Shown: one piece after another, positions 19,989-32,226 of the stretch
Numbering within the stretch: position 1 is the stretch's first letter
How the letters are laid out: every line of letters begins with the position of its first letter
Assembly: GCF_000017505.1 (NCBI RefSeq)
Contig: NC_009675.1
Location: 3,791,001 to 3,855,000 of the forward strand
Length of the DNA stretch: 64,000 nt
Reading direction: 5' to 3'
DNA from: Anaeromyxobacter sp. Fw109-5
GTDB taxonomy: Bacteria; Myxococcota; Myxococcia; Myxococcales; Anaeromyxobacteraceae
The notes under the pieces: generated by a model
Databases searched by the model: none
Told to the model about the DNA's origin: nothing
The model's input: the letters and a program-made list of their open reading frames with translations, nothing else
Translations under genes and position numbers: made by a program

Positions 19989-19992
19989 CTTC

Positions 19993-20042
19993 ACGCCCCG
20001 ACCGACAGTACCGCCGCACGCCCCGACCGACAGTACCGCCGC
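19993..20042. repeat. Perfect 25-bp tandem duplication upstream of the REP transposase
   Basis: The unit beginning acgccccgaccgacagtacc, 25 bp long, occurs twice back to back just after the VOC stop. It lies 50 bp upstream of the transposase start and may be part of that element's 5' repeat. Confidence 0.9.
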
Positions 20043-20090
20043 GCGAACCACCGACCGTCCCGCGGCCGTTTCCGGATCGTGTAAGTCTTC

Positions 20091-21038
20091 GTGATGACAA
20101 CAGACGGGCGCGGCACGGCCCCTGCCTACCGTCGTCCCGTGACCTCGCCTCGTCGCGTCTTGCCTGGAACCACCTACCTCGTGACGCGCCGCTGCTCGGA
20201 GCGACGCTTCTTCCTGCGCCCGAGTCGTGTCGTGAACGAGATCTTCCTCTACGTCCTCGCGGTCGCTGCGCGCCGCTACGGGCTGCTCGTCCACGCGTTC
20301 TGCGTCCTCTCGAACCACGCGCACCTGGTCGTCACCGACCCTCACGGCCGGCTCCCCGCGTTCATGCAGTACCTCGACTCCCTCGTCGCACGAGCAGTGA
20401 ACGCGCATCTGGGCCGCTTCGAGGGCTTCTGGGCCACCGACGGAAGCTACAGCGCGGTCGAGCCGCTCGATCCGGGAGACGTCGTCGCCAAGACTGCGTA
20501 CGTGCTCGCGAACCCGGTCGCCGCCGGTCTCGTCCGCCGCGGAGCCGAGTGGCCAGGCCTCTGGACCGCGCCCGCGCAGCTCGCCGGCACGAGACTCTCG
20601 GCGCGGAGGCCTACGGTCTTCTTCGACCCGAAGAGCTACATGCCCGACGTCGCGGAGCTCGAGCTGACCGTCCCTCCCGGTTTCGCTTCGGCGGAGGACT
20701 TCCGGGCGCTCGTGTCGGAGGCGCTCGGCGACCTCGAGGAGAAGCACCAGCGGGAGCTCGCGTCGGAGCGCCGCAGGTTTCTCGGGGCTGCGCGCGTACT
20801 CGCCCAGAACCCGTTCTCGCGTCCGCCGCGCGGGGAGCCACGCTTCGCGCTCAGGCCGCGGATCGCCGCCCGCGACAAGTGGAGGCGGATCGAGGCGATC
20901 TCCCGCGTGAAGACCTTCCTGCGTGAGTACCGGCAGGCCTGGACCGCGCGTCGCTCGGGCGCGCCGAACGTGCAATTTCCGGCGGGCACCTACCTCCTCC
21001 GCATCATGCACGGCGTGCAGTGCGCCGGCGCTGCGTAG
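20091..21038 (+). mobile_element. REP-associated tyrosine transposase (Y1/HUH type)
   Basis: A 315-residue transposase of the TnpA_REP (RAYT) group of HUH nucleases. The HUH-like metal motif is His76-Ala-His78 in CVLSNHAHLVVTDPHG. Downstream come LPAFMQYLDSLVARAVN, carrying the region of the catalytic tyrosine, and TAYVLANPVAAGLVRRG, a hallmark of these proteins. Y1 transposases cut single-stranded DNA at REP hairpins. Direct copies of a 35-bp repeat lie 180-370 bp downstream, and a decayed copy of the 3' end with flanking DNA lies at 39.1-39.4 kb. The coding region appears intact. Confidence 0.88.
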
Positions 21039-21215
21039 CTCGATTCGCGCCCGATCAGCCCAAGACGAACTCGGTCGCGCTCGCTTCCGGTGCCGCCATG
21101 CAAGCGCCGACGAGCGCCTGGGAGTGATTTGAGGCGCTCCCGATCGATCCGACCGGTACTCACGGTCACTCGGTTGGTCGCCAGCACGCCCTCTTGCGCA
21201 CATCAGAGTCGCCCC

Positions 21216-21403
21216 GTCAGGCCTCGCGGACCGGTTACTCTCGGCGGGGCGCTCGGGCGGGGCCCCCCCGCCGTCAGGCCTCGCGGACCGGTTACTCTCG
21301 GCGGGGCCCCCCGGCGGGGCGCCCGCGGCGGGGCGCCCCCCGTCAGACCTCGCGGTCCGGTTACTCTCGGCGGGGCGCCCGGACCGGTTACTCTCGGCGG
21401 GGC
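21216..21403. repeat. Array of REP-like repeats downstream of the Y1 transposase
   Basis: Three near-identical 35-bp copies start at 21216, 21273 and 21342, each containing ccggttactctcggcggggc after gtcag(g/a)cctcgcgg. A shorter fourth copy is at 21380-21403. Intervals are uneven and very G/C-rich. Association with the adjacent transposase marks them as probable REP elements (its substrates). They are too irregular for CRISPR. Confidence 0.8.
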
Positions 21404-21606
21404 GCCCGGGACAGGCCATGACCCTCGTGATGTGCTGCACGGCTTGAAGAGCATGGCCCTCTCCACTAGTCTCAATATTCGTTGATTAGGTGTCCGCGCC
21501 CTCGGCACGCGCAAACTGCGGATCCTCGCGCCCCCGTTGAGGGGAGCGGCGCCCGAGGGGACGAGCGGCGCCGTCCTGCGTCGCCAGCCGACAGGAGGAG
21601 TGCGAG

Positions 21607-22287
21607 GTGACCACCGAGACCCCTGCCCGCCGCTTCAAGAACGCGATCTACGAGCAGTTCGCCCGCGTCGGCAAGGCGCTCGCGAGCCCCCACCGGATCG
21701 AGCTTGTCGAGCTCCTCGCGCAGGGGCCGCGCACGGTCGAGGCGCTCTCGCGGATGGCAGACATGAGCCTCGCGAACACGTCCGCGCACCTCCAGGTCCT
21801 CCGTAACGCGGGACTCCTCGAATCGACGAAGGAGGGCCTCTTCGTCACCTACCGCCTCGCGGACCCGAAGGTAGGCGAGCTGCTCCTGTCGCTCCGAGCC
21901 GTCGCGGAGACGCGGCTCGCAGAAGTATCGAAGACGACGCGCGAGTTCCTCGCCGACAACGCGCTCCTCGAGCCGGTCGATGAGGCGGCGTTGCGAAAGA
22001 GAGTCAAGAACGGCGAGGTGACCCTCCTCGACGTCCGGCCGCCCGAGGAATACGAGGCCGCCCACATCCCTGGCGCGCTGTCGGTTCCCCTGCCCGAGCT
22101 CGCGAAACGGATCTCGGAGCTCCCGCGCCGCCGCGAGGTCGTCGCGTATTGCCGAGGACCGTACTGCGTGCTCTCGGTCGAGGCGGTGAAGCTCCTGCGC
22201 CGCAAGGGGTTCAAGGCCGTACGGCTCGAGGAGGGGATCCTCGACTGGGCGGCGCTCGGCCTCCCCCTCGAGGCGAAGACGGTGTGA
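21607..22287 (+). CDS. ArsR family regulator fused to a rhodanese domain
   Basis: A 226-residue two-domain protein. Residues 10-95 form an ArsR winged helix (KALASPHRIELVELLAQGPR; MSLANTSAHLQVLRNAGLLE). Residues 125-222 form a rhodanese domain (LLDVRPPEEYEAAHIPGALS) with active-site Cys182 in VAYCRGPYCVLS. No ArsR metal-site cysteine motif is visible in the recognition helix, so sensing of persulfide or another thiol species through the rhodanese part is plausible. GTG 21607 follows AGGAGG. The methyltransferase start overlaps its stop (GTGA). Confidence 0.9.
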   Translation: MTTETPARRFKNAIYEQFARVGKALASPHRIELVELLAQGPRTVEALSRMADMSLANTSAHLQVLRNAGLLESTKEGLFVTYRLADPKVGELLLSLRAVAETRLAEVSKTTREFLADNALLEPVDEAALRKRVKNGEVTLLDVRPPEEYEAAHIPGALSVPLPELAKRISELPRRREVVAYCRGPYCVLSVEAVKLLRRKGFKAVRLEEGILDWAALGLPLEAKTV

Positions 22288-23018
22288 GCAGCGGCGCGAC
22301 GCCGCTCGACTACGCCGCGTGGCGCGCGAGCAGGCTCGGCAGGATCACGGAGCGGCTCGAACGGGCCGCGGTCCTCGACCTCGTCGGCGAGCCCGCGACC
22401 GTCGACGTCCTCGATGTGGGCGCGGGCGACGGTGCCTACGCGGTCGCTCTTGCGAGGCAGAGCGCACGTGTGACGGCGCTCGACCCTTCCGCCGCCGCGC
22501 TCGGGGCCGCCCGCCGCGCTGCGCGAGATTGCGGCGAGCGCCTCCGGCTCGTGCGAGGGTACGCGCAGGCGCTGCCGTTCGAGGACGCCGCCTTCGACCG
22601 CGTCATCGCGGTGACGGCGCTCTGCTTCGTCCCTGAGCCCGACCGCGCGATGTCCGAGATCGCCCGCGTGCTTCGACCGGGGGGACGGCTCGTCATCGGC
22701 GAGCTCGGCCACTGGAGCGCATGGGCCGCGTGGCGGCGCGCCAGGGCGCTGTTCAGACCCTCCTCGATCTGGCGCCGCACCCGCTTCTGGACGCCTCGCG
22801 GCTTGAGACGCCTGGCGGAACGCGCGGGGCTCGTCCCGGGTCGGGTTTGGGGGGCGGTGTTCCACCCACCGCTGACGATCGCTGCGGCCGCCCTCGCTCC
22901 CTTGGACCCGTGGCTCGGACGCGCCACCACGGTCGGGGCTGCGTTCGTAGCGCTTCGAGCGGAGAAGCCGACCGCTTTCCCCCCGCAAGGGACGGCGCAG
23001 GACGGGCGCCGAGGTTGA
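22284..23018 (+). CDS. SAM-dependent methyltransferase (class I)
   Basis: A 244-residue class I methyltransferase with motif I in VLDVGAGDGAYAVALARQ, a motif II-like acidic residue in RVTALDPSAAAL, and the post-motif EIARVLRPGGRLVIGELGH. It begins at GTG 22284, overlapping the regulator stop by GTGA, so translation is coupled. C-terminal residues (WTPRGLRRLAERAGLVPGRV) fit the UbiE/Methyltransf_11 group. The substrate is unknown; the context with rhodanese, DsrE and ArsR proteins hints at a sulfur, selenium or arsenic compound, which is inference. Confidence 0.9.
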   Translation: MSSGATPLDYAAWRASRLGRITERLERAAVLDLVGEPATVDVLDVGAGDGAYAVALARQSARVTALDPSAAALGAARRAARDCGERLRLVRGYAQALPFEDAAFDRVIAVTALCFVPEPDRAMSEIARVLRPGGRLVIGELGHWSAWAAWRRARALFRPSSIWRRTRFWTPRGLRRLAERAGLVPGRVWGAVFHPPLTIAAAALAPLDPWLGRATTVGAAFVALRAEKPTAFPPQGTAQDGRRG

Positions 23019-23128: not shown

Positions 23129-23866
23129 ATGAACTGTCTCGTCTGCAACGAGCCGTCGAAGACGAATACGCGCGTGTGTCCGGCCTGCGCAGGGCTCGAT
23201 CACGCTGAGCTGATCCGCCGCTACTGCGCGCACGCGACGTCGACGAGCCCGCTCGACATGGCGCAGGCGATCATGGCTCACCCGAACTTTCCGGTCGCGG
23301 GGCAAGCGCACCACCCGCTCGTGGCCGCCGTCCTCGTGACGGCGTGGAGGAACGCCACCGGCGCGGACGCGGCCCACAGGATCGATGCCGCCATCCAGCG
23401 CGGGGGCAGCATCCCCGGCGGCTTCTGCGCCGGGTTCGGCGCGGACGCGGCCGCGATCGCCTGCGGCATCGCCGTGAGCGTCATCGAGGGGAACACGATC
23501 AAGGCGGCGCACGCGCCGGGGCGCGCGCGGGCCCACGCGCTGACGGGTCAGGCGATGCTCCAGATCGCGAGCGGAACCGGAAACCGCTGCTGCAAGCGCA
23601 GCGTCTACGGCGTGCTCGAGACCGCGACCAGTTACTTCAATGCCGCGCTTGGCGTGACGCTCGCTTCGGCGAGCGCGCGGGTGGAGTGCCCGCTCTCCGA
23701 GGCGAACAAGCTCTGCAATCGCGAGGCGTGCCGCTACTTCCCGCCGGGCGCGAGACCGCAGCGGCAGGCGCGCGCCTCGCCGTCGTCGAGGAAGTCGCAT
23801 GAGGGGCAGCGCAGGGACGCCGTGACCCTGCCGGAAACGAACACACCTGCACCGGAGGACGCGTGA
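23129..23866 (+). CDS. DUF5714 family protein, cysteine-rich
   Basis: A 245-residue protein of the DUF5714 type. It opens with a four-cysteine knuckle (MNCLVCNEP and VCPACAGLDH) and has further conserved-looking cysteines in GFCAGFGADAAAIACG, GNRCCKRSVYGVLETA and CPLSEANKLCNREACRYF. Such an array could bind a metal or Fe-S cluster. The family's role is unknown. Its end overlaps the DsrE start by four bases. The final 40 residues are low in complexity and probably disordered. ATG 23129 begins the first Cys pair, preceded by GAGGAG. Confidence 0.85.
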   Translation: MNCLVCNEPSKTNTRVCPACAGLDHAELIRRYCAHATSTSPLDMAQAIMAHPNFPVAGQAHHPLVAAVLVTAWRNATGADAAHRIDAAIQRGGSIPGGFCAGFGADAAAIACGIAVSVIEGNTIKAAHAPGRARAHALTGQAMLQIASGTGNRCCKRSVYGVLETATSYFNAALGVTLASASARVECPLSEANKLCNREACRYFPPGARPQRQARASPSSRKSHEGQRRDAVTLPETNTPAPEDA

Positions 23867-24213
23867 AATTCCTCATCATCCTGAACGACCCGCCGTACGG
23901 CACCGAGCGCTCGTACAACGGCCTTCGCCTCGCCGGCAACCTCGTCACGAAGCACGAGCAGGCGGAGGTCGACGTCTTCCTCATGGGCGACGCGGTCTCC
24001 TGCGCGAAGTCGGGCCAGACGACCCCAAACGGCTACTACAACCTCGAGCGCATGCTGAAGCCCGTCCTGCGCCGCGGGCGCGTCCTGCTGTGCGGTAGCT
24101 GCATGGAGGCCCGTGGTCTCAAGGAAGCCGAGATGGCCGAAGGGGCGAGGCGAAGCACGCTGGACGAGCTGGCACAGCTCACGGTGGCGGCCGACAAGGT
24201 CATCGTGTTCTAG
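23863..24213 (+). CDS. DsrE/DsrF-like family protein
   Basis: A 116-residue DsrE-fold protein: KFLIILNDPPYGTERSYNGL at the N-terminus, a DVFLMGDAVSCAKSGQ loop with a cysteine at the usual active position, and VLLCGSCMEARGLKEAEM with two more cysteines. DsrE-type proteins relay sulfur as persulfide or act as small redox carriers. It begins at GTG 23863 inside the DUF5714 3' end, so the two are translationally coupled and probably act together. Confidence 0.9.
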   Translation: MKFLIILNDPPYGTERSYNGLRLAGNLVTKHEQAEVDVFLMGDAVSCAKSGQTTPNGYYNLERMLKPVLRRGRVLLCGSCMEARGLKEAEMAEGARRSTLDELAQLTVAADKVIVF

Positions 24214-24236: not shown

Positions 24237-24920
24237 GTGCGCCGCTTCCTCCCACGCTCGTATGTAGAGGCGTTCGTCGATCCCGACGAGAGAGATGGGT
24301 TGGTGTGGGTGCACCGGCCCGTGATCGGCGTCTTCCAGGCGGCTCGCCTCGAGCCGGACGGCACGAGCCGGCACTTCAACGAGGTGGACGAACCCGCGCT
24401 CCACAAGAACGACGACCTGGAGCGGCTGCTCGCGGAGGTCGAATCCGAATCCGCCCGCCTCGTCGCGGGGAAGCTCTCGCGTCGCGGCGCCCTGGAACCC
24501 ACCGAGCGCGACGTGCTCGCCTCGTTCTTCGCCCTCCTCGGCATCCGCCTTTCCTCGGGCTTCGGTCAGCTCGGCGAGGACGAAGCACGGCGCGGCTACG
24601 ACGAGCTCGTCGGCGTGATGCGGGACATGGGGTGGGTATTCTGGGAGGCCGACGCACCCGACTACTTCGTCTCGTCGAGCGCGCCGTTCCACGTTGCGTT
24701 CCCGACGGACGACGGGCTCGTCCAAGGCATGGAGCTGCACGCCTCGGGCGTCGAGATCACCCTCCCCCTCACCCCGCGCCTCGCTCTGCACGCCACCTGG
24801 AAGCGCCGCGGCGAGGTTTGGCGCCGCGCGACCGAGGACGTGTTGCTCGAGCTGAACGCGCGGACGCTGCTCCGTGCGAAGAAGTTCGTCCTCGCGCCGA
24901 AACCCGCCATTCCCGGTTGA
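24237..24920 (+). CDS. DUF4238-like protein
   Basis: A 227-residue soluble protein. The opening FLPRSYVEAFVDPDERDGLV and VWVHRPVIGVFQAARLEPDG is the usual start of DUF4238 proteins, followed by a helical centre (DVLASFFALLGIRLSSGFGQ) and LPLTPRLALHATW near the end, which is also typical. The function of the family is unknown. GTG 24237 lies 23 bp after the DsrE stop, so it may still be part of that transcript. Confidence in the family name is moderate. Confidence 0.7.
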   Translation: MRRFLPRSYVEAFVDPDERDGLVWVHRPVIGVFQAARLEPDGTSRHFNEVDEPALHKNDDLERLLAEVESESARLVAGKLSRRGALEPTERDVLASFFALLGIRLSSGFGQLGEDEARRGYDELVGVMRDMGWVFWEADAPDYFVSSSAPFHVAFPTDDGLVQGMELHASGVEITLPLTPRLALHATWKRRGEVWRRATEDVLLELNARTLLRAKKFVLAPKPAIPG

Positions 24921-25022
24921 CGGTTCACGTGCTGATCTCCGGGCGAGGTCGAGAGCGGCGGCGGGACTGGTTGGCGAGTCGCAGCAATTCCACCTGCATC
25001 TAGCTCGAGGAGAGCCACCCCC

Positions 25023-26174
25023 GTGAAGCTCAGCATCAAGTTTCATCCGCTGCTCTTTCAGGCGTCGCTCGCAGCCGGCGGTGTGGCCCTCATGGCCTTC
25101 AACTACCTGCACTTCGCCATCCCACACGGGAAGGGCCCCATCGCGCTTCACGACATCTCCTGGGGCAGCATGTCCCGGCCCCACGTGGCGCTCTATGTGC
25201 CCTTGGTGCTCGTGATGCTGGCCTTCACGCTTCTGAACTTCGGGCTGACGGCCTACTTCCTCCATCGACTGGTCAAGTGGCTGAGGGAGCCGGGTGCCTA
25301 CACGGCCTTCAGGAGCAACGCCCAGGCAAACCAGAACGCCGGCATCTTCGCCATCGTGGGTTCGCTATCCATGACGGTGAACGTGGTCTGGGCACCGTTC
25401 AGCTTCTTCGTCCCGCAGATGTCCTCGCACATGCAGGCGATGATGCTGCCGTCCCTCATCATCTTCGCCCTCCTTCTCACGGCCCTCATCGTCCTGGAAG
25501 TGACCTTCGGCAGGACCTGGTTCGCGCCCGGGATCGACCGGACCAAGTTCAACTTCGTCTGGCTGCTCGACGCCTTCGCCTTCGGCCTGGTCGCCCTGAC
25601 GGGTTCGGGCATCGTGGCCATGGCCAAGAACGACCTCGTCGTGGAGATGGCGGGTGCAGCGACCTTGTTCACCCTCGGAGTGGGCGGCGTCATTCTCCTG
25701 TACAAGGTCGGATACCTGACCTTTCACCATTTCAAGGCAGGGCAGCTGCCCGCGCACCCGGTGATGCCCGGGTTCTTCCTCATCGTGCCCATCGCGTGCC
25801 TGTTCGGGCTTTCCGCGTACAGGATTGCCGGCTACCTGGAACCGGCTGCGGCGGGTTCCGGGCCGCACTCCACGCTCATTGCCGCCTCTTACGTCTTGGC
25901 CGTCGTCTGGGGCCTGGGCGCGATCTACGTCATCAGGGACTACCTCACGAGCTACTTCGTGAAGAGCCCGTTCGCTCCGGCGCAGTGGGGTTTCGTCTGA
26001 GCGTTCGTGGGCTCCCAGGTCCTGGGAGTATATGTGTATGGGTTCTTCTACCAGTACACTGCGCTGTCGGCCCTCAATTACCTGAGCGTCTATCTGGCTG
26101 CCATCGTGTATGGCTTGGTCATGCGCAAGTTCCTCGTTGCAAACCGTTGCGTGAAAGCGGTGGCCGTCGCCTGA
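25023..26174 (+). CDS. Polytopic membrane selenoprotein, UGA at codon 326 read as Sec
   Basis: The first 325 codons encode eight hydrophobic segments and end PFAPAQWGFV at an in-frame TGA (25998-26000). The same frame then runs on for 57 codons with two more membrane segments (AFVGSQVLGVYVYGFFYQY and LSVYLAAIVYGLVMRKFLV) and a TGA at 26172. A perfect hairpin with GGUC in its apex begins 12 bases after the inner UGA, the form and spacing of a bacterial SECIS such as fdhF. So this is best read as a 383-residue selenoprotein. It resembles SLAC1/TDT-like membrane proteins, and from memory a family named TsoY in which Cys or Sec occupies this position; that identity is unchecked. GTG 25023 follows GAGGAGAG. 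Confidence 0.8.
26012..26028 (+). promoter_or_regulatory. Bacterial SECIS-like hairpin
   Basis: CTCCCAGG-T-CCTGGGAG is a perfect 8+8 inverted repeat. As RNA it gives a 6-7 bp stem with apex GGUC(C) at 26018-26022, 17 bases after the UGA at 25998-26000. E. coli fdhF has GGUC in the apex 18 bases after its UGA. No other hairpin this strong lies nearby, and it falls inside the coding frame, as bacterial SECIS elements do. Confidence 0.8.
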
Positions 26175-27846: not shown

Positions 27847-29082
27847 TCAGGGGAGCGTCAACTCCAGTCGTCGCGTCCCGCCGCCGATCTCTCTCGCCAG
27901 CTCGCGGTACCTGGGTTCCTTGAAGCCGACTGCTGCCCGGCGGAGGACGGGGTGAAGGGCGGAAGGACGGAACTCCGTGATCTGCTCGTGCGGAAAGGGC
28001 TCCTCGCCCGTCGCGAACGGCACGAGGTACTCGACCCCTTGCCGCAGCGAGCTCCCCGTCGGGGTGCGGAAGTTCCACAGGTCCACGTCCAGCCGCTCGC
28101 CGAGCGCCGCGAGGTGCATGTACGCAGTGAGGTTGAAGACGCTGTAGTCCCAGGCGCGCGTGCGGCTGAGCTCGCGTGGCTGGCTGCCGTCCGGTTCGAA
28201 CTGCCCCGCGATCCCCGCCTGCCCATCCAGGAGCGCCGTCCGCGCCGCCTCGGTCTCCCCCGTGTAGAGGGCGAGCGCGACGACTTGCACTCGATACCAG
28301 GTCTCCTGGTTGTTACCCCGGTTCGCCTGCACGCGGCCCTTCTGGCTCGTGAGGAGCCACTCCAGGTATGAGCGCATCCACTCCTCGAACGCCTCCTCGT
28401 CCGACGCCGTCCACGCCGGCGAGCCCTCTACCAGCATCACGCCGTCGATGATGGTCGGCAGAAACCGACTCTCGATGATGCCGGCGGCGCGCCCTTCGGC
28501 GACACCCGGGACGCCCTGTGCAAATTCGAGGTGTGGGTTCATCCGCGTCGCCTCGTCCAGGAACCAGACCCTGACGAACCGCGCCAGCTGCTCCGCGAAC
28601 TCCTCCCGGCCGGTCAGGTAATACGCAAGCCCGAGTGTCGAGACGTTGCGGGTGAGGCGTTCGAGGTTCTGCCGATCGGTGATGCGGTCGATCTCGGGGT
28701 TTCGCTCCCCGTCACGCTCGACGTACGGCAAGCCGTCCGGCTTCGACGGGTCGGGCCACCAGTACGGCGCCTGACTCATGTAGTCGTGCTTGTCGCCGCT
28801 CGGCGGGACGACGGGCTCGTCCGTCACGGATACCGGCGGCAGCGCCAGCGCGCGGCCTGCATCTGCTTCGAGCGCGGCGAGCGCCTCCCTGTACTGCGGT
28901 TCTCCCCGGCGCAAGCTGTCCCGCACCCGCGAGACGTGCGCCCCGTCGATCATGAGGAGCCGAGGGCTCGCGGATGGCGGGGTGGGCTCGCCATCGGCGG
29001 CGGGGCCACTGCGCGCGCGATCGCAGCTCCCGGCGAGGGAGAGGACACCCAGCACCATCGCCACATGTAGAGCCTTCCACAT
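27847..29082 (-). CDS. Alginate lyase (PL5-like) lipoprotein
   Basis: A 411-residue lipoprotein: the signal MWKALHVAMVLGVLSLAGSC ends in a lipobox with Cys20. The mature part is an alpha/alpha-toroid-type alginate lyase domain, with KHDYMSQAPYWWPDP near residue 98 and NRGNNQETWYRVQVVALALY near 265, where the conserved Asn-Asn and Tyr of PL5-like lyases are expected. Such enzymes cleave beta-1,4-linked mannuronate chains by beta elimination. It follows the GH3 lipoprotein by 81 bp on the same strand, so both probably sit in the cell envelope and break down a polysaccharide together. Confidence 0.85.
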   Translation of the reverse strand: MWKALHVAMVLGVLSLAGSCDRARSGPAADGEPTPPSASPRLLMIDGAHVSRVRDSLRRGEPQYREALAALEADAGRALALPPVSVTDEPVVPPSGDKHDYMSQAPYWWPDPSKPDGLPYVERDGERNPEIDRITDRQNLERLTRNVSTLGLAYYLTGREEFAEQLARFVRVWFLDEATRMNPHLEFAQGVPGVAEGRAAGIIESRFLPTIIDGVMLVEGSPAWTASDEEAFEEWMRSYLEWLLTSQKGRVQANRGNNQETWYRVQVVALALYTGETEAARTALLDGQAGIAGQFEPDGSQPRELSRTRAWDYSVFNLTAYMHLAALGERLDVDLWNFRTPTGSSLRQGVEYLVPFATGEEPFPHEQITEFRPSALHPVLRRAAVGFKEPRYRELAREIGGGTRRLELTLP

Positions 29083-29163
29083 CGCCTGTTCCCTTATCCG
29101 CTCCGCCAGCGCCGCACCACGCCGCCCCGTCCACGAGCTGGAGGCGGCGGCGTGGTCGCCCAC

Positions 29164-31653
29164 TTACCGGCGCGGCACCCCCGCAGCGACGGAGACCGCC
29201 TGCTGGAGCGGGGTCTCCGCGGACGACGTCCCGACGTGCACGGTGTAGCTGCCTGGAGCCGTTCTCCACTCGCCCCGTCCCCAGCCCGGCTCGGGAACGT
29301 CTTTCTCGGGCACCCAGTACGAGAGCGGATGGTTGGCCGCGGACTCGTCGACGGTGACGGTCACCTGCCGGCTCTCGCCGGGCATGAGATCGACCTTCTG
29401 GAAACCGACGAGCCGCTTCGAGGGCTGACCCGCCTCCGGCGGCAGCGTGAGGTAGACCTGCGAGGCCTCCGCGCCCTGCCGCGTCCCCGTGTTCGTGATC
29501 CTATAGGAGACGTTCAGGACGTTCTGGCCCTGCGGGCCGGCGACCGTTTGAACCGATAGGTCAGCGTACGCGAACGTCGTGTACGACAGGCCGAAGCCGA
29601 ACGGGAACACGGGTTTCACGTTGTTGGCCTCGTACCACCGGTACCCCACCTGCAGCCCCTCGCTGTACTGCGCGGAGAACCGCTTCTGGCCCTCCAGCGT
29701 CGGCGAAGGATCTCCGCCCGGCTCGTTGCTGTTCGACGGGGTCGCCAGCCAGTGCGGCGGGCCGACCCACAGCCCGGGGAACTGCGCCGTCGTCTCGTGA
29801 GCGGCTTCCCTTTCCGAGTTGCCGAACGTCATGGGCAGCTTCCCCGAGGGATTGCGCAAGCCGAAGAGGATGTTCGCGACCGCGAGGCCGTCCGACTGCC
29901 CCGGGTACCAGGCCTCGACGAGCGCCGGCACCTTGTCGAGCCACGGCATGAGGACCATGCCCTCGGTCTTGAGGACGACCACCGTCTTCTTCGCGACCTC
30001 TGGATCCGCCGACAGCTCCGCCATGAGCATCTCCTGCTGCGTCCCCTCGCCTCTCTCCGGCCGCTGCAGGACGTACTCGCCCTCCTCCAGCTCGTCGTAC
30101 GCGCAGAAGTTCGGATCCGCGGGAGGAATGACCGGCAAGCTCAAGGTCTCCCGGTCGCACAGCTCGTGCGGGTTGTCGCCCACCATGACGATCACGACGT
30201 CGGATTTCCTTGCGAGCTCGATGGCCCTCTCCCGGTCCTCCTTCTTGCCGGTACCGCCGGCGCTGTCGTAGGTGACCGTGGCCGGGGAGCCCAGCGTGAT
30301 GAGGACGTGCTCCAGCCCCTCTTGCGGACTCACAGTGAAGGGCGCGACGACCCCTACGTTGTCCGCGCGAATGGACCGGGGGGGCAGCTTCGCCTGGCCG
30401 GCGAACCACTCCGCGCCGATGAGCGCGATCGACCGGATCTCCTTGGGTTCGAGCGGCAGGAAGCCCTGCTCGTTCTTGAGCAGGACGATGCCCTGCTCCG
30501 CGAGCTCGCGAGCCACCGCCGCGTGGGCGACGAAGTCGACCGGGGACCCGTAGAGCGCGTCGAAGTCGGTGTCGAAGTGGCCGAACTTGAACATCTGGAC
30601 GTAACGACGCCGGAGCATCTGGTCGATGTCGCCGACGGTGATGGTGCCCGCGTCCAGGGCGGCCCTGATGCCTTCGCTCCCCGGGTTCCCGCGCTGTCCG
30701 CGCTGTGGCTCGAGCGAGTAGTGCAGCGGCGTGATGTGGGAAAGCTCCCAGTCCACCCCGGCCTTGATCGACGGCGCGACGTCGTGCACGGCTCGCCGGT
30801 CGGACATCACGTATCCCTGGAACCCCCAGCGCTCGCGGAGCGTCGTCTTGAGCAGATCCTCGTTCGAGCATGCGGAGACGCCGTTGATCTCCGGAAAGGC
30901 GCACATGATCGACGCTGGCTGAGCGTCCCGGACCGACATCTCGAAGGGCAGCAGGTAGAGCTCGTGCAGCGCGCGCGGCGGCACGACCGTCGCCATCTGA
31001 CGGCGCTGGGATTCCTGCTCGTTCGCGGCGAAGTGCTTCGCGTTCGCGTGAATGCCGTGGGCCTGGATGCCCTTGATCTGCTCGGTGGCCATCACGCCGG
31101 ACAGGTACGGATCCTCACTCTGATATTCGTAGTTGCGTCCACCGAATGGGTGGCGATGGAGGTTCATTCCGGGCGCGAGCATCACCTGGTGCCCGACGCT
31201 CCGCGCCTCGGCGCCGAGCACCTCGCCGAGCTGACGGTTGAGCTCTGGGTTGAACGTGGCCGCGCTCGCTGGCGTGGACGGCACTGCCGTCGCCACGGGC
31301 TCCGGGAGGCAGCTTCCGCCGCGCACGCCCGTCCCGCCGTTGATCATGCGGACGGTCGGGATCGCGAGCTCGGGAATGCCCTGGATGTGGCGGGCGATCT
31401 GCGTGAACTCACAGCCCGGCGGCCGATTCTCGTCCTTCTCCGCAGGCCGCGTGTCGTTGGAGATCTGCTGGACCTTCTGCTCGAGCGTCATCTGCGGGAT
31501 GAGCAGGTCCGCGCGTTGCTCAGCGGTGAGGCTGGTGTTCATCCAGGGGAGACCGGACTGCTGCGCCCCGGACTCAGCATCGACGCTTCGGCCGCAACTC
31601 ACGCCCAACGACAGAAGACCGACCACGGTCACTGCACGCAATTCACTCCACAT
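29164..31653 (-). CDS. Glycoside hydrolase family 3 (beta-glucosidase-like) lipoprotein
   Basis: An 829-residue GH3 enzyme with a lipoprotein signal (AVTVVGLLSLGVSC, Cys20). The barrel domain carries MLAPGMNLHRHPFGGRNYEY, NAKHFAANEQESQRR and the nucleophile aspartate in GFQGYVMSDRRAVHD. The second domain has EQGIVLLKNEQGFLPL, and the C-terminal fibronectin III-like domain follows VFPFGFGLSYTTFAYADLSV. At the nucleophile most beta-glucosidases have Ser-Asp-Trp; here it is Ser-Asp-Arg, which may alter the +1/-1 site. Start ATG 31653 is chosen for the signal peptide. First gene of an operon with the lyase. Confidence 0.93.
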   Translation of the reverse strand: MWSELRAVTVVGLLSLGVSCGRSVDAESGAQQSGLPWMNTSLTAEQRADLLIPQMTLEQKVQQISNDTRPAEKDENRPPGCEFTQIARHIQGIPELAIPTVRMINGGTGVRGGSCLPEPVATAVPSTPASAATFNPELNRQLGEVLGAEARSVGHQVMLAPGMNLHRHPFGGRNYEYQSEDPYLSGVMATEQIKGIQAHGIHANAKHFAANEQESQRRQMATVVPPRALHELYLLPFEMSVRDAQPASIMCAFPEINGVSACSNEDLLKTTLRERWGFQGYVMSDRRAVHDVAPSIKAGVDWELSHITPLHYSLEPQRGQRGNPGSEGIRAALDAGTITVGDIDQMLRRRYVQMFKFGHFDTDFDALYGSPVDFVAHAAVARELAEQGIVLLKNEQGFLPLEPKEIRSIALIGAEWFAGQAKLPPRSIRADNVGVVAPFTVSPQEGLEHVLITLGSPATVTYDSAGGTGKKEDRERAIELARKSDVVIVMVGDNPHELCDRETLSLPVIPPADPNFCAYDELEEGEYVLQRPERGEGTQQEMLMAELSADPEVAKKTVVVLKTEGMVLMPWLDKVPALVEAWYPGQSDGLAVANILFGLRNPSGKLPMTFGNSEREAAHETTAQFPGLWVGPPHWLATPSNSNEPGGDPSPTLEGQKRFSAQYSEGLQVGYRWYEANNVKPVFPFGFGLSYTTFAYADLSVQTVAGPQGQNVLNVSYRITNTGTRQGAEASQVYLTLPPEAGQPSKRLVGFQKVDLMPGESRQVTVTVDESAANHPLSYWVPEKDVPEPGWGRGEWRTAPGSYTVHVGTSSAETPLQQAVSVAAGVPRR

Positions 31654-32226
31654 GATGTGCCCCTCACCCTTTGGCCGCTCGACCGCGCCCGTGACCTGCC
31701 CCGCCGCGTCCACGCGTTGGACGCGCGTCGTCGCTCGCCCGCGTCGCGTGCGCGCCGGCCCGGGACTAGGCGCGCACTCCTTGTGAAGTCGTCTCGCGCG
31801 GAGCGTTCGCCGAGCGCTACTCGACCGCACCGCCTTCCGGCCGCGCCGGCCTCGGGGAGGAGTCGGCCACGCATGCGGGGCGGCCGCTCGACACCTCCTC
31901 GAGTGGCAGCACGTGCGTGCCCTCGGACCTCAAGGTGCGCCGCGACGTCGCGGAGTGGGTCGGGCGGTCGCGCCCTCGCTGCCGGGCCGAGCGTTGCAAG
32001 GTCCGAGGCGAGGCACGCGTCCGTGGCAAGCGCTGGCATGGTGCCCCCAGGAATGGAACTCCGCGCGCAAAATGTGGGTCGCCTCGCCCTCGTTTCCAAG
32101 CCGAGGCGAGCCCCTGCTTCACCAGCGGTGGGCCGGGAGCTCCTCGGCGAACGAGCGAAGCGCGCCGTCTTGCGCGAGGTGCAGCATGCGCCACGCTCAC
32201 CCTCCCCGCGACGACGACGAGGATGC
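31654..32226. other. Gap without a recognisable intact gene
   Basis: About 570 bp upstream of the GH3 gene. Open frames on both strands are arginine- and proline-rich without family likeness. It must hold the promoter of the GH3-lyase operon; no elements are assigned. Confidence 0.45.

Follow-up and report, generated by a model that had tools for sequence, protein, structure and literature searches.

A TsoY-family selenoprotein of Anaeromyxobacter sp. Fw109-5 with a likely TehA/SLAC1 channel fold and selenocysteine at the likely pore-gate position

TsoY is entered as a predicted prokaryotic selenoprotein, with the motif UxxV and the family model NF047643, in a 2026 review of the selenoproteome (PMC13188914), which attributes the family to Haft and Tolstoy 2025; the portions of that review available to us give no fold or function for the family, and the passage on transporters in those portions does not include it. 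A second set of described proteins relevant here is the TehA/SLAC1/SLAH anion channels (PF03595; structures 3m71, 7en0, and 9m7r). In HiTehA, the odd-numbered helices line the pore, Phe262 on the ninth transmembrane helix (TM9) forms the gate, and Ile203 lies close to Phe262 (PMC11050165); F450 of AtSLAC1 is the equivalent of Phe262 and has a gate role as well (PMC10645844). Eleven selenoproteins have been reported in Anaeromyxobacter dehalogenans (PMC1794560).

We analyzed a stretch of 64,000 nucleotides from Anaeromyxobacter sp. Fw109-5 (contig NC_009675.1, positions 3,791,001 to 3,855,000; hereafter the window, with positions counted from its first letter). On its plus strand, an open reading frame with a GTG start at 25023 runs for 325 codons up to a TGA at 25998–26000, and, as the initial annotation had described, the same frame then stays open for 57 further codons and closes at a second TGA (26172–26174). 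Read through, the gene (25023–26174) encodes a protein of 383 amino acids that includes selenocysteine at position 326 (Sec326). In a profile search, this protein scored 492.1 bits against NCBIfam NF047643 (selenoprotein TsoY; cut-off 250), residues 6–370 matching positions 1–366 of the 366-position profile; the genome-level match contains one internal TGA, and the residues U-A-F-V from position 326 satisfy the motif UxxV. Because of this match and the listing in the review (PMC13188914), we assign the gene, tsoY, to this known family as a new member: it matches at full length and far above cut-off, carries one Sec, and shows no difference that would exclude it. The selenoprotein itself was thus already known, and the earlier description of it as "new-style" is not supported.

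Evidence from this single sequence is only suggestive of Sec decoding, since among the 1,193 TGAs of this GC-rich window 39% precede at least 57 open codons and 12 (1%) precede a hairpin of at least 6 bp with GGT or GGC placed as in tsoY. The abundance of long open frames at this GC content speaks for a reading in which the protein ends at the UGA with 325 residues and the downstream frame arose by chance. Decoding as Sec is instead settled by homologues, which keep both the TGA and similarity on its two sides. Five further TsoY loci, 43–85% identical to the window protein, remain similar up to their normal stops, none ending at the UGA without similarity beyond it, and TGA occupies the same codon, in the same alignment column, in all six distinct tsoY sequences. 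Identity to the window protein is 42–85% before the UGA and 48–82% after it, where the translated region (26001–26171) comprises the remainder of TM9 and TM10; nucleotide changes among the homologues are concentrated at codon position 3. Together with the unchanging hairpin codons, the complete Sec machinery of the host (both described below), and the curated family model, this downstream similarity leaves very little probability for a chance frame. Smaller still is the probability that a Cys (TGC/TGT) or Trp (TGG) codon became TGA through pseudogenization or sequencing error, a reading for which nothing speaks besides the stop itself and against which stand six loci, taken from separate assemblies and in part from genomes outside the phylum of the window, that all carry the same TGA.

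Directly downstream of the UGA lies a bacterial SECIS-type hairpin (26011–26029, plus strand) with a stem of 7–8 bp and a core of CTCCCAG-GTC-CTGGGAG at 26012–26028. The initial annotation had placed a hairpin with a GGUC apex 17 bases past the UGA; that distance is correct for the start of the apex but not for the hairpin, whose stem begins at 11 bases. As in Escherichia coli fdhF, a stem-loop with a GGUC apex immediately follows the UGA, at 17 nt in tsoY and 18 nt in fdhF; unlike that of fdhF, which is broken by a bulged base, the tsoY stem is uninterrupted. The hairpin pairs in every sequence (100% of cells paired, six sequences), though with six of the eight stem pairs invariant, covariation is uninformative. 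The hairpin codons GGC, TCC, CAG, and GGA are identical in 6/6 sequences, down to the homologue with 43% protein identity, whereas neighboring conserved residues after the UGA vary at synonymous sites. Across the protein, 95 of the 111 invariant residues with degenerate codons vary in codon use, and these four codons are among the 16 that do not. A search of the window with Rfam gave no match, and no Rfam family covers this hairpin.

The 5.28-Mb host genome encodes selB (325 bits), selA (545 bits), and selD (397 bits) by profile search, as well as tRNA-Sec (selC) with anticodon TCA; selB and selC, whose absence would have told against Sec, are thus both present. Given family membership, this machinery, and the similarity of homologues past the UGA, the original reading of 25998–26000 as a Sec codon stands, and it is very likely a conserved one, decoded by the host SelA/B/C/D with the help of the SECIS hairpin. 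The same genome holds further cases of in-frame UGA. Its SelD (G000:C1:4028582-4029508) is itself a selenoprotein (HGAGUACK), and the hairpin after that UGA has its GG starting 17 nt downstream, like tsoY. Two small rhodaneses with in-frame TGA (G000:C1:3471855-3472208 and G000:C1:2306825-2307058), with read-through motifs YCRGAGUTLS and YCSGPRUTAS, respectively, correspond to the form, with motif UxxS, in which rhodanese is already known as a selenoprotein; conventional gene callers would be expected to split both. For TsoB, the genome gave no full-length match above cut-off.

Among the homologues, one (L022, 84% identical) comes from a genome of the same family as that of the window, deposited as an Anaeromyxobacter metagenome-assembled genome (MAG); another (L023) is from an Actinomycetes MAG, and three more genomes with tsoY belong to the same phylum group as the latter. 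The eight other genomes searched within the window's genus lack tsoY, whose distribution is therefore patchy, and the gene has probably moved between lineages. Agreeing with this patchiness, the tsoY region (25000–26000) has a GC content of 63%, the lowest in the surrounding 14 kb (63–73%). One additional copy (L053, in genome G625) breaks off before the UGA (ending LLITASY*) and is followed by unrelated sequence; it either has decayed or was cut short by an assembly break and is uninformative on the UGA. No Cys form of TsoY was found among about 1,000 sampled genomes of two phyla: searches for Cys homologues via NF047644 gave none in 195 genomes of the window's phylum, in 396 genomes of a second phylum, or in two classes belonging to the latter, no match in plasmids, and none in genome contigs. 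The earlier suggestion that Sec replaces Cys here is accordingly not borne out; where TsoY has Sec, the SLAC1 superfamily at large has Phe.

An AlphaFold2 model built from the six TsoY sequences, of moderate confidence (pLDDT 63.8, pTM 0.71), contains ten long helices, the last two spanning residues 320–340 (TM9) and 346–382. Foldseek placed SLAC1/SLAH channels at ranks 1–3 for this model. In VIA-align, it matched SLAC1 (7en0_A) with Z 28.1 over 304 aligned residues at 3.4 Å and TehA (3m71) with Z 26.0, covering model residues 3–378; the best designed, unrelated helical bundle reached Z 19.4, against Z 25–28 for matches to the SLAC1/TehA fold. Sequence-level similarity is faint, with only 10–15% identity between TsoY and canonical SLAC1 proteins. 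Pfam SLAC1 (PF03595) matches four of the six TsoY members, one of them (L035) above the curated cut-off (29.8 bits against 27.9), over residues 7–370 and hence across the UGA; it does not match the window protein, which has no Pfam match of any kind, or L034. A search of PDB sequences returned nothing relevant. When TsoY was compared with a SLAC1 alignment in hhalign, no full-length match reached significance, and the register chosen was repeat-shifted; HMMs made from the small number of SLAC1 loci lacked the strength to be of use. On the strength of the model comparisons and the Pfam match of one homologue, TsoY is likely a membrane protein whose ten helices adopt the TehA/SLAC1 anion-channel fold. 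A product terminated at the UGA would lack TM10 and the greater part of TM9 of the predicted fold, and Sec326, which the initial annotation had set between two membrane helices, falls inside TM9.

TsoY resembles TehA, SLAC1, and SLAH in its modeled whole-length ten-helix fold and in the TM9 motif W-x-[FL]-x-gate (QWGFVUAF within PAQWGFV-U-AFVG, compared with YWGLVFPL in myxobacterial SLAC1). It differs from them in having Sec for the gate Phe, longer loops, and a channel role that is predicted only; after the gate position it has Ala, not Pro or Gly as in SLAC1 and TehA. In four MAFFT modes, Sec326 falls in the Phe262/Phe450 column, which holds Phe in 11/11 SLAC1-family sequences and U in 6/6 TsoY sequences, leaving TsoY without a gate Phe. 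An ungapped scan with the TM9 motif, its center residue omitted, ranked the Sec326 site first in five of the six proteins and second in the sixth. The HiTehA mutant chains 3m73, 3m74, and 3m75 differ from wild type at Phe262, within LWAFSFG. Because the hhalign result was non-significant and repeat-shifted, the register of Sec326 rests on the multiple alignment, the motif scan, and the fold comparison; these indicate that Sec326 likely occupies the position of the pore-closing gate Phe (HiTehA Phe262, AtSLAC1 Phe450). A redox role for this residue, as initially put forward, is plausible. Apart from Sec326, C259 on the neighboring pore helix TM7 is the only invariant Cys. An Se–S link between the two is possible, but a direct bond is uncertain because C259 aligns near HiTehA residue 209, about six residues past Ile203.

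The gene lies in a run of plus-strand genes that begins with an ArsR/SmtB regulator-rhodanese fusion (21607–22287; PF01022 and PF00581) and a SAM-dependent methyltransferase (22284–23018), the latter recurring beside tsoY elsewhere only as a 62-aa match in L022. These are followed by a DUF5714 protein (23129–23866; PF18978, 168 bits), not found beside other tsoY genes, then by a DsrE-family sulfurtransferase-like protein (23863–24213; PF02635, 83 bits) with one central Cys and a CxxC (LLCGSCMEA), and, between dsrE and tsoY, by a DUF4238 protein (24237–24920; PF14022), a relative of which lies downstream of tsoY in L022 by tblastn. The DUF5714 protein has no Sec and is distantly related to the double selenoprotein MbdU, scoring 76 bits against NF045648 (below the cut-off of 600). 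With a TehA-fold protein near methyltransferase genes, the arrangement recalls the tehA-tehB tellurite resistance operon; unlike in that operon, the methyltransferases of the window are not TehB above cut-off, and the conserved neighbors are DsrE and ArsR-rhodanese. Upstream of the run, GC-rich tandem repeats with units of 25, 57, 69, and 27 bp (19992–21409) flank a weak IS200-like transposase match (20091–21038; PF01797, below cut-off), and beyond tsoY, on the minus strand, an alginate-lyase-family gene adjoins a GH3 glycosidase gene (27847–31830).

In five of the six loci, tsoY has both DsrE and an ArsR fusion as neighbors. The dsrE gene neighbors tsoY in L022, L040, L041, and L042, at 52–76% identity to the window DsrE, and the ArsR-rhodanese fusion does so in L022 (70%) and L040 (56%). 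The window, L022, and L040 have ArsR-rhodanese first and DsrE second; in L041 and L042, DsrE comes first and is followed by an ArsR-GcvH-like fusion. In these last two, the GcvH-like fusions (L041:9629-10540 and L042:9449-10330) sit directly upstream of tsoY in place of ArsR-rhodanese, an unusual architecture for a sulfur sensor. Since these neighbors recur and cysteine desulfurases lie within about 6 kb of tsoY in L022 and L040, association points to a role in sulfur transfer or sulfur stress.

Selenocysteine is usually catalytic, and the DsrE and rhodanese neighbors carry reactive cysteines. TsoY, no longer conducting anions, might act in the membrane as an oxidoreductase or as an acceptor of persulfide, with Sec326 receiving sulfur from DsrE and C259 as a possible resolving cysteine; the SLAC1-like fold would then be a mere scaffold. 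A Sec at a pore gate inside TM9 would be a poor docking site for a soluble protein, however, and no other catalytic domain was recognized, so that we think this reading rather unlikely. SSU1, the sulfite exporter of fungi, is a member of this TDT/SLAC1 superfamily as well; its membership, together with the sulfur-related neighbors, would fit an SSU1-kind exporter of sulfite or another sulfur oxyanion whose Sec tunes pore size and has no redox role. To this we give slightly less credence again: 6/6 loci have Sec, our searches turned up no form with Cys, Ser, or Phe, and such strict conservation argues that selenium chemistry is needed in TsoY.

The explanation that we favor, with somewhat better than even confidence when taken as a whole, is that TsoY is a channel-fold selenoprotein through which a sulfur anion passes, that its gate is a selenol at the Phe262 position, and that it responds to redox state or persulfide. 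A response of this kind is probable; we infer the sulfur-anion substrate, itself guessed from the neighboring genes, and gating by reaction of the selenol. TsoY would pass a small sulfur anion—sulfite, sulfide/hydrosulfide, persulfide, or thiosulfate—that the co-encoded DsrE and ArsR-rhodanese proteins would feed or relieve. The pore selenolate may react with sulfur species or oxidants, or form an Se–S link with C259 on TM7, and the gate would open or close with the sulfur redox state. Stated in full, the proposal of an anion channel with the SLAC1/TehA fold that is gated by a selenol, responds to chalcogens or redox state, and is coupled to a sulfur relay of DsrE and rhodanese is tentative, and we rate it as less likely than not.

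The Sec family to which this protein belongs was known; a TehA/SLAC1 fold and the gate placement for TsoY are absent from the available portions of the review (PMC13188914). The gene described here adds one genome to a selenoprotein family named by NCBI. If the gate placement holds, TsoY would carry a highly reactive selenol at the one position where TehA/SLAC1 channels have a blocking ring, and an uncharacterized family would gain a concrete hypothesis. A selenium-gated ion pathway, if true, would be, to our knowledge, the first of its kind.
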